The notes under the pieces are model-generated. The model made no database searches and was not told the DNA's origin. It saw nothing but the letters and a program-made list of their open reading frames with translations. Source: Parvularcula mediterranea (GTDB lineage: Bacteria > Pseudomonadota > Alphaproteobacteria > Caulobacterales > Parvularculaceae). From it: a stretch of DNA of 64,000 bases. The stretch is from positions 672,501-736,500 of the forward strand of contig NZ_JABFCX010000002.1 of the NCBI RefSeq assembly GCF_013085255.1. Reading direction: 5' to 3'. Shown here piece after piece: positions 58,077 through 60,800 of the stretch (positions are counted from its first letter, which is position 1; each line of letters begins with the position of its first letter). The translations under genes and the position numbers were made by a program.

Positions 58077-60800
58077 ATGACTCACTCCGCCGAGACCATC
58101 GCCGAACACGGCCTGACGCCCGAAGAATATGACCGCTTCAAGACCTCGATCGGTCGCGAGCCAAGCATGCTTGAGCTCGGCATCGTCTCGGTCATGTGGT
58201 CCGAGCACTGCTCCTACAAGAGCTCCCGGCGGCACCTGAAGACCCTGCCCACCGAAGGCCCGCAGGTCATCCACGGCCCCGGCGAGAACGCAGGCGTGGT
58301 CGACATTGGCGACGGTCAGGCGGTCATCTTCAAGATGGAGAGCCACAACCACCCAAGTTTCATCGAGCCCTATCAGGGAGCAGCGACCGGGGTGGGCGGC
58401 ATCATGCGCGATGTCTTCACCATGGGCGCGCGTCCGGTGGCGCTTCTCAATGCGCTCCGCTTCGGCGCGATCGATCATCCGAAGACGAAGCACCTTCTGT
58501 CGGGCGTCGTTGCGGGCATTGGCGGCTACGGCAACTGCATGGGCGTCCCGACCGTCGGCGGTGAGACAGGGTTCGATCCCCGCTACAATGGCAACATCCT
58601 CGTCAACGCCATGTGCGTTGGCATCGCGGACACCGACAAGATCTTCCTCTCGGCTGCCAAGGGTGCAGGCAATCCTGTCGTGTACGTCGGATCGAAGACT
58701 GGCCGCGACGGTATCCACGGCGCGACCATGGCCTCGGCTGAGTTCGACGAAGCCTCCGAGGAGAAGCGCCCCACCGTGCAGGTCGGCGACCCCTTCATGG
58801 AGAAGCTGCTCCTCGAAGCCTGCCTCGAGCTAATGGCCGAAGACGCTATCGTCGCGATCCAGGACATGGGCGCGGCTGGCCTCACTTCCTCGTCGGTGGA
58901 GATGGCGTCCGGTGGCCTCGCAGCTGGCGAAGGCGGTCTGCACCTCAAGCTCGATGACGTTCCTCAGCGTGAGGACGGCATGACGGCATACGAGATGATG
59001 CTGTCGGAGAGCCAGGAGCGTATGCTGATGGTTCTCAAGCCCGGCGCCGAAGACAAGGCCCGCGCCATCTTCGACAAATGGGAAGTCGACTTCGCCGTCA
59101 TCGGCCATACGACGGACACAGGCCGGCTCGTGATCGAGCACAAGGGCGAGATTGAATGCGACCTTCCCCTCGAACCCCTCGCTGACGAAGCGCCGAACTA
59201 TGACCGTCCGCAAGCGGAACTCTCTGAGCCTGCACAGCTCGAAGATCCGGTCGCCAGCTTCACCGACCTTCAGGTCTCGCTCACCAAGGGTGAGCAGGAC
59301 CTCGAACAGGTGGCCGAAGCCCTGATCTCCGAGACCCTGAGCGGCAAGGACGGCATCGGCGCTGTTGGTATCTCTGAGGGTAACGGAACCCTCACCATCC
59401 ACGCGCGCACCAGCTTCGGCGCGGACAGCGCGGTTCTCGACACCTTCAAGACCGCCGCCCAGAATCTTGAAGCCGCAGGGGCTGTCGCCAAGGTCCGCGC
59501 CGAAGACGAGACGGTGGAGGTGAACCTCGCCGACCAGCCGGGCGGCGACACCATGCTGCTGGCACTCCGTAAGCTGACGGCTTCGCCTGACCTTTGCTCG
59601 CGCCGCTGGATCACCCAGCAGTACGACCACACGGTCATGGCCGACACGCTAATAACCGGCGGCGATGCTTCGGTGGTTCGGGTGCACGGGACGAACAAGG
59701 CTCTCGGCGTCACCGCCGATTGTACGCCCCGCTATTGCGCCGTAGCGCCCTATGAGGGCGGCAAGCAGGCCGTGGCCGAAGCCTGCCGCAACCTCTCCGC
59801 CGTGGGTGCTGAGCCGCTGGCGATCACCAACTGCCTCAATTTCGGCAATCCCGAAAAGCCCGAGATCATGGCCGGTTTCGTCGGCTGTATCCGGGGCCTC
59901 GGCGATGCTGCCAAAGCGCTTGGGGCACCTGTCGTGTCGGGCAACGTCTCGCTCTACAACGAAACCGACGGCTCGCCCATTCCGCATACCCCGGCCATTG
60001 GCGCCGTAGGCATCCTCCGTGACCAGAACAAGCGCGCGACCATCTCCGGCATGGAGAGTGGCGATGCGCTCATCGCCATCGGTGTGACCCGGGGCCACCT
60101 CGGCCAGTCGCTCTACATGCGAAACCTCTTCGGCATTGAGGAGGGCGCTCCCCCCGCCGTCGATCTCGAGCTTGAGAAGAAGACCGGCGATTTCATCCGT
60201 AAGCAGATCGAAGATAGCGCTGTCTCGGCCGTCCACGACGTCTCCGATGGCGGCCTTCTCGTCGCAGCGTCCGAAATGTGCCTCGCCAGCGGCATGGGCG
60301 TTGCCCTCACGACCTCGATCAGTGCCCGGAAGGCAGCCTTCTGGTTTGGCGAGGACCAGGCCCGCTACCTCGTCTCCGTCCCGGCCGAGACCGCAGACAG
60401 CTTCGTCCTCAAGGCCGCCATGGCAGGGCTCCAGGCCAGCCGTCTCGGCATCTTCGGCGGCGAGGAAATCATCCTCGACGGCCAGGAACGCATTGCCGTC
60501 ACCGATCTCGCCGCAGCCCACGAAGCCACGATCCCTGAACTCTACCGCCTCGAGGAGGACCGCCTGATGCCCATGAAGGAATCCGAGATCAAAGAGATGA
60601 TCCTGACCGCCATGCCCGACGCCGAGGTCGAGATCGAAGACCTCGCAGGCGATGGCGACCACTACCGCGCAGTCGTCCGGTCAAACGCCTTCGAAGGCCT
60701 CACCCGCATCCAGCAGCATCAGTTGGTCTACCGAGCACTGGGCGGAAAAATGGGCGACACCCTCCACGCCCTGGCCCTTGAAACACAGGTTAAGGGGTAG
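58077..60800 (+). CDS. purL: PurL-BolA fusion (FGAM synthase large subunit plus BolA domain)
   Basis: A 907-residue fusion. Residues 1-380 and about 490-825 form the two PurL halves that convert formylglycinamide ribotide to the amidine with [20 protein letters not shown] and the G-N-V-S-L-Y-N-E-T motif are intact. About 393-484 is an extra segment not seen in Bacillus-type PurL (about 740 residues). Residues 831-907 are a complete BolA/IbaG domain with [19 protein letters not shown] and L-H-A-L-A-L. In alphaproteobacteria bolA is normally the next, separate gene. An internal GAGGAGG and ATG sit at the junction. No grxD follows. Confidence 0.93.
60552..60575 (+). promoter_or_regulatory. bolA: Internal ribosome site and start for the BolA part
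   Basis: GAGGAGG at 60552-60558 is eight bases from an in-frame ATG at 60567, with a second ATG at 60573. It lies exactly where PurL homologues end and BolA begins, so a free 77- or 75-residue BolA could be made besides the fusion. Confidence 0.6.

Follow-up and report, generated by a model that had tools for sequence, protein, structure and literature searches.

A purL-bolA gene fusion in the Parvularculaceae that likely kept the start of its downstream gene

The window, a stretch of 64,000 nucleotides of Parvularcula mediterranea DNA, holds a reading frame in which the purine enzyme PurL (FGAM synthase) runs on into BolA. How did two genes come to share one frame, and does the joined gene give one protein or two? 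bolA adjoins purL in many Alphaproteobacteria and no explanation for this was found; a covalent link kept across a family makes a functional tie between PurL and BolA directly testable. The role of BolA in bacteria is itself unsettled, and the title of a 2023 review calls it mysterious (PMC10051749).

From 58077 to 60797 the sequence is a single open frame of 907 codons, closed by a stop codon at 60798-60800. It encodes in order PurL, a short linker, and a 77-residue BolA that begins MPMKESEIK, with no stop between them; a ten-residue PurL landmark is joined to BolA by ten residues. The features of the locus are:

58077..60800, + strand: fused purL-bolA frame, 907 codons and a stop, open throughout in all 55 family genomes whose junction is assembled
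58077..60536, + strand: PurL (FGAM synthase, small type), residues 1-820, from NF002290, TIGR01736 and Pfam AIRS and AIRS_C
59244..59546, + strand: inserted domain of about 101 residues between the AIRS halves (residues about 390-490), from alignment and predicted structure
60537..60566, + strand: linker of 10 residues, part of it probably the old purL-bolA spacer now translated, from comparison with separate loci; variable in length, always in frame
60552..60558, + strand: internal Shine-Dalgarno sequence GAGGAGG, eight bases before the ATG
60567..60569, + strand: internal in-frame ATG, the BolA start (ATG-CCC-ATG), an ATG in 55 of 55 family loci
60567..60797, + strand: BolA domain of 77 residues (Pfam PF01722), also the predicted free BolA of 8.53 kDa

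The predicted mass of the fusion is 95.95 kDa, and that of a product begun at 60567 is 8.53 kDa. The PurL part scores 994.5 bits with NF002290 (cut-off 648) and 916.5 bits with TIGR01736 (cut-off 525.75), both NCBIfam equivalogs. Pfam places AIRS, AIRS_C, FGAR-AT_linker and BolA on the fusion, and the two AIRS/AIRS_C repeats that mark a small PurL are present, two stretches of each. The BolA part scores 46.2 bits with PF01722 (cut-off 25.7) in a match spanning profile positions 26-72 of 76, and Met831 at the border of BolA is invariant in all 30 sequences aligned. In an AlphaFold model of the whole protein linker residues 825-831 have a pLDDT below 50, consistent with a flexible tether. The first-pass annotation of this DNA had put PurL and BolA in one stop-free frame, with GAGGAGG eight bases 5' of an in-frame ATG at 60567; both statements hold at the same coordinates. 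Its description of the PurL needs one correction: the enzyme is more than a plain PurL, as it carries the extra domain at residues about 390-490.

Related genomes, where the first-pass annotation proposed looking for the same fusion, do carry it. With the full fusion protein as query, 60 of 62 genomes of the family matched, two of those only through another BolA gene, and the PurL-to-BolA junction is free of stops in all 55 genomes where it is assembled. The seven genomes without a visible junction are two with no match (G005, G047), two with the other BolA only (G007, G018) and three cut before the junction (G026, G027, G061). Of 57 loci examined, two were set aside: L181, which holds the other half of a BolA split in one genome, and L182, which has no BolA. 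In three of the remaining 55 a contig end or a run of N truncates BolA. Relatives with the fusion include Parvularcula oceani, Aquisalinus flavus, Marinicaulis (now Hyphococcus) and Parvularculaceae MAGs. The 80 named loci comprise 12 fused ones, 2 fragments of fused genes at the edges of contigs and 66 that are unfused. Of the 14 fused records, 12 carry Parvularculaceae or the name of a genus within it in the title, and two only 'Alphaproteobacteria bacterium'. As the named loci overlap the family genomes (L086 with L175, L091 with G004), they are not independent evidence. G018 and G007 have no detectable PurL hit despite a completeness rating of 98%, which is probably due to gaps in fragmented assemblies, or possibly to purine auxotrophy.

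Elsewhere the two genes are separate. An order-level search of 200 genomes gave no fusion outside the family among the matches listed, nor did a class-wide sample of 387 genomes (326 matched) add one among its listed matches, although rare cases may still exist beyond them. The long open frame of G219 in the order-level search is accidental and not a PurL-BolA fusion, and those of G436, G291, G346, G232, G407 and G551 are not fusions either, with PurL in another frame or far off. In the unfused named loci the PurL frame stops and never runs through BolA in 63 of the 63 with PurL in view, the remaining three of the 66 (L152, L159, L165) showing no PurL. The median gap from the purL stop to the bolA start is 27 bases (range -20 to 284), and one pair, L156, overlaps in another frame. 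The separate bolA mostly starts with ATG-CCN-ATG or ATG-GCN-ATG after a Shine-Dalgarno sequence; the mean Shine-Dalgarno value is -6.6 over 65 loci, 63 of them separate and two the fused fragments L134 and L139.

The gene behind bolA differs as well. grxD lies at most 1.2 kb behind bolA in 57 of the 62 separate loci with room to tell, a count that takes in L152, L159 and L165. At the fused loci, for which mostly about 1.5 kb downstream was examined, grxD is not adjacent; L075 and L175 have it about 1 kb away, and among the fused named loci with longer flanks it is 1 kb away in L086 (probably the same contig as L175) and about 5 kb away in L090 and L145. The first-pass annotation had suggested searching the genome for a second bolA and for grxD, and P. 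mediterranea has both: a second BolA gene elsewhere in the genome, and a CGFS glutaredoxin gene unlinked to the fusion on another contig (G000:C2:985291-985578).

In a quick tree of 73 PurLs, made without bootstrap from alignments lacking the inserted domain and BolA, 19 fused PurLs form one clade (SH-aLRT 100). Given the separate neighbours elsewhere, the one fusion clade and the likeness of the linker to the former spacer, a single loss of the purL stop appears to account for the fusion. Loss of the stop in an ancestral purL-bolA pair, by which the spacer would have become the linker, is therefore well supported by sequence comparison. The first-pass annotation had proposed the same event and noted that purL and bolA are commonly adjacent yet separate in Alphaproteobacteria, and the stops and short gaps of the separate loci agree with both points.

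The joined gene nevertheless looks to have kept the start of bolA. With the ATG at the BolA border present in every one of the 55 family loci, the duplex with the anti-Shine-Dalgarno sequence reaches -5 kcal/mol or lower in 54 of them (mean -8.1). By comparison, 15.5% of 1200 other in-frame ATGs of the same genes do so (mean -2.1). L076 is almost without a Shine-Dalgarno sequence, at -0.1 kcal/mol. The distance between a GGAG core and the ATG is 9 bases in 36 loci and 6 bases in 7. The family thus has one mark of an N-terminal proteoform pair, a conserved in-frame start codon with a Shine-Dalgarno sequence.

The open frame looks to be under selection too. The linker, taken from the I of IPELYR up to the junction Met, comes in ten lengths (11 to 30 residues) among 51 loci, all of them in frame and without a stop. 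Shuffled linkers are stop-free 62% of the time on average, and the product of the no-stop probabilities over eight genera, with one locus each, is 0.006 before the frame-keeping changes in length are counted. Beyond the linker, Ka/Ks values of 0 to 0.17 for BolA in 11 gene pairs, some with Ks near saturation, indicate purifying selection. Frame and start signal are thus apparently kept together at one site, as the making of two products would require.

Based on these comparisons, it is likely that the loss of the stop and the kept internal start lead to two products, PurL-BolA and a free 8.5-kDa BolA. Under this scenario, an ancestor lost the stop between its adjacent purL and bolA, which turned the spacer, with the ribosome-binding site of bolA in it, into an in-frame linker. 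As the sequence reads, translation begun at purL finds no stop until BolA is complete and so yields PurL-BolA. The old bolA Shine-Dalgarno sequence and ATG would have been selectively kept inside the joined gene, and other ribosomes would enter there to make free BolA. Both products appear to have been retained, as no linker was seen with a stop or a lost frame and the start signal persists in nearly all. Most likely this is because the cell would still need free BolA to pair, as BolA usually does, with the CGFS glutaredoxin GrxD. The tethered copy, more speculatively, might put BolA, and hence its glutaredoxin partner, on FGAM synthase. Among the points against two products, a Shine-Dalgarno sequence inside a gene under translation may be used weakly, and the second BolA gene could be the source of free BolA.

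Both products might also be made with the tethered BolA a passenger, only the free BolA being at work and PurL tolerating the tail. This is possible, if rather unlikely. The conserved start signal would be expected in that case, and the low confidence of the model at linker residues 825-831 (pLDDT below 50) and a grxD that no longer adjoins the gene would also fit. However, a passenger should sometimes be lost. One change could restore the stop, yet none of the 55 junctions has one, with the linker varying through ten lengths in 51 loci.

A greater departure from the two-product reading, and an improbable one, is that the gene makes the fusion protein only, the internal Shine-Dalgarno sequence and ATG being relics or the outcome of a preference for Lys-Glu/Glu-Glu in the linker. 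The amino acids of the linker do already favour purine-rich codons, as synonymous recoding of the 24 bases before the ATG, by each gene's own codon usage, still gives a mean of -5.0 against the observed -8.1. The Shine-Dalgarno sequence of the window itself does not exceed in strength what synonymous recoding gives by chance (p = 0.33), so the signal is one of the family, and in 3 of the 55 loci (L004, L008, L076) it is weaker than the gene's own synonymous mean. Over the family, however, the Shine-Dalgarno sequence exceeds this amino-acid-matched null. The pooled z of -8.4 is overstated, the genomes being related; averaged over eight genera the observed value is -7.5 against -4.3 for recoded sequences, and 0 of 2000 draws were as low. 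In four loci (L010, L074, L085, L171), moreover, the GGAG stands 8 bases from the ATG in a shifted codon register, so that the amino acids differ while the same RNA signal is kept. The mRNA near the internal start is also less structured than the remaining gene (47 loci), and this goes beyond synonymous recoding, with a z of +1.05 (standard error 0.14, 49 loci) against -0.42 in control windows (standard error 0.08, n=196). Given the ATG in 55 of 55 loci, the strong Shine-Dalgarno sequence in 54, its excess over synonymous recoding across eight genera and the unstructured mRNA, the internal bolA start looks to be kept by selection. The second, free BolA product that the first-pass annotation had suggested thereby gains comparative support that is strong but indirect, from the conservation of the Shine-Dalgarno sequence and ATG, the register shifts and the low structure.

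That free BolA arises by proteolysis in the linker, and not by internal initiation, is much less probable again. The low confidence of the linker in the model is what a flexible stretch would show, but the sequence of the linker is poorly conserved, with a mean majority residue of 59% against 83% for BolA (46 sequences), while the Shine-Dalgarno sequence and ATG within it are kept. A sequencing or assembly error that deleted the purL stop has practically no chance of being the explanation, as nothing was found in its favour and it is ruled out by all 55 family genomes with an assembled junction, which read through it in the same way.

The fused PurLs differ from the separate ones in a further respect. 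The extra residues between the AIRS halves, about 101 of them, occur in 49 of the 51 fused loci aligned (the remaining two are fragments that do not extend to the region) and in none of the 16 separate PurLs aligned (15 different, one duplicate). The domain was modelled with a beta-alpha-beta-beta-alpha-beta core at a pLDDT of about 92-95. Foldseek matched it to ferredoxin-like folds with modest TM-scores (best 50 of 1781 matches), and on fold alone it may be described as ferredoxin-like. A sequence search of the PDB with it returned one designed protein only (E = 0.11). The order of its core elements prompted the idea of an origin from PurS. This is not supported by hhalign, with a probability of 0.3% from shallow alignments, or by Foldseek, with no PurS among the best 50 of the 1781 matches; the test is a weak one. 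A small PurL would act as FGAM synthase together with PurS and PurQ; a separate PurS gene is present in P. mediterranea (86.3 bits, cut-off 39), and 53 of the 62 family genomes have a PurS gene over the cut-off. The inserted domain is fast-evolving, with Ka/Ks up to 0.44, and among the PurLs compared was seen only in fused ones (for example L003-L032).

What might such a gene be for? Tentatively, and with the odds clearly against it at present, the locus could be a node between purine synthesis and iron-sulfur metabolism: an FGAM synthase with a fixed BolA and a lineage-specific ferredoxin-like domain, and a free BolA translated off the one mRNA. In this reading GrxD, in its holo or apo form, would be recruited by PurL-BolA and purine synthesis would thereby sense iron-sulfur status, with internal ribosome entry setting the ratio of PurL to BolA. 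The physical tie of FGAM synthase to iron-sulfur status that the first-pass annotation suggested is likewise speculative, and the second BolA and the unlinked glutaredoxin are to be set beside it. An Fe-S cluster in PurF was considered as another link between the two and dropped: PurF of P. mediterranea (L233) has Cys at three positions like those of the four Fe-S cluster cysteines of the B. subtilis enzyme, and the fourth is apparently replaced.

Whatever its purpose, the locus shows cleanly how two neighbouring genes became one that probably still makes both proteins, the frame and the start signal both bearing signs of selection at one place. Among the matches listed in the open PMC literature, the scope of which leaves subscription journals aside, there was no paper on a PurL-BolA fusion.

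Several known systems resemble the fusion in part. The closest is the separate purL-bolA-grxD neighbourhood of other Alphaproteobacteria, which has the same order of purL and bolA, the same close spacing and mostly the same ATG-[CG]CN-ATG start behind a Shine-Dalgarno sequence. There the PurL stop is present and grxD mostly follows close behind bolA, whereas the fused locus has neither. With the small PurL of B. subtilis type, the FGAM synthase of NF002290 and TIGR01736, the fused PurL shares equivalog scores far over the cut-offs, and it differs from it by the C-terminal BolA and the inserted domain of about 101 residues.

The fused BolA is a member of the BolA family (PF01722), of the purL-linked kind, by its Pfam score over the cut-off. 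Of the published motif SxxF(x18)E(x5)H (PMC10051749), the S, F and C-terminal H stand at motif spacing in 51 of the 55 fused BolAs; two of the other four are cut by contig ends (L070, L172), one contains Ns (L180) and one has extra residues (L171). Unlike other BolAs it is tethered to an enzyme, and the motif Glu is replaced by Arg (28) or Lys (23). Its separate relatives likewise have Arg or Lys at that position in 39 of 66 loci, with four giving no match. Since the Glu occurs once in these 66, it does not mark a purL-linked BolA. As a BolA, the protein would be expected to bind a CGFS glutaredoxin through a shared [2Fe-2S] cluster, and the genome encodes such a glutaredoxin elsewhere.

For the internal start, the likeness is to the N-terminal proteoform pairs of Salmonella and E. 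coli, where Ribo-RET detected downstream in-frame starts with strong Shine-Dalgarno contexts (PMC11005335). In those pairs, as in the fusion, an in-frame AUG with a strong Shine-Dalgarno sequence lies inside a longer gene. Those pairs were detected by Ribo-RET, whereas the internal product of the fusion is predicted from sequence and would be a whole former gene, brought inside the longer one by the fusion. Given such published starts, the internal-start mechanism would be ordinary, and the fusion is the unusual part.
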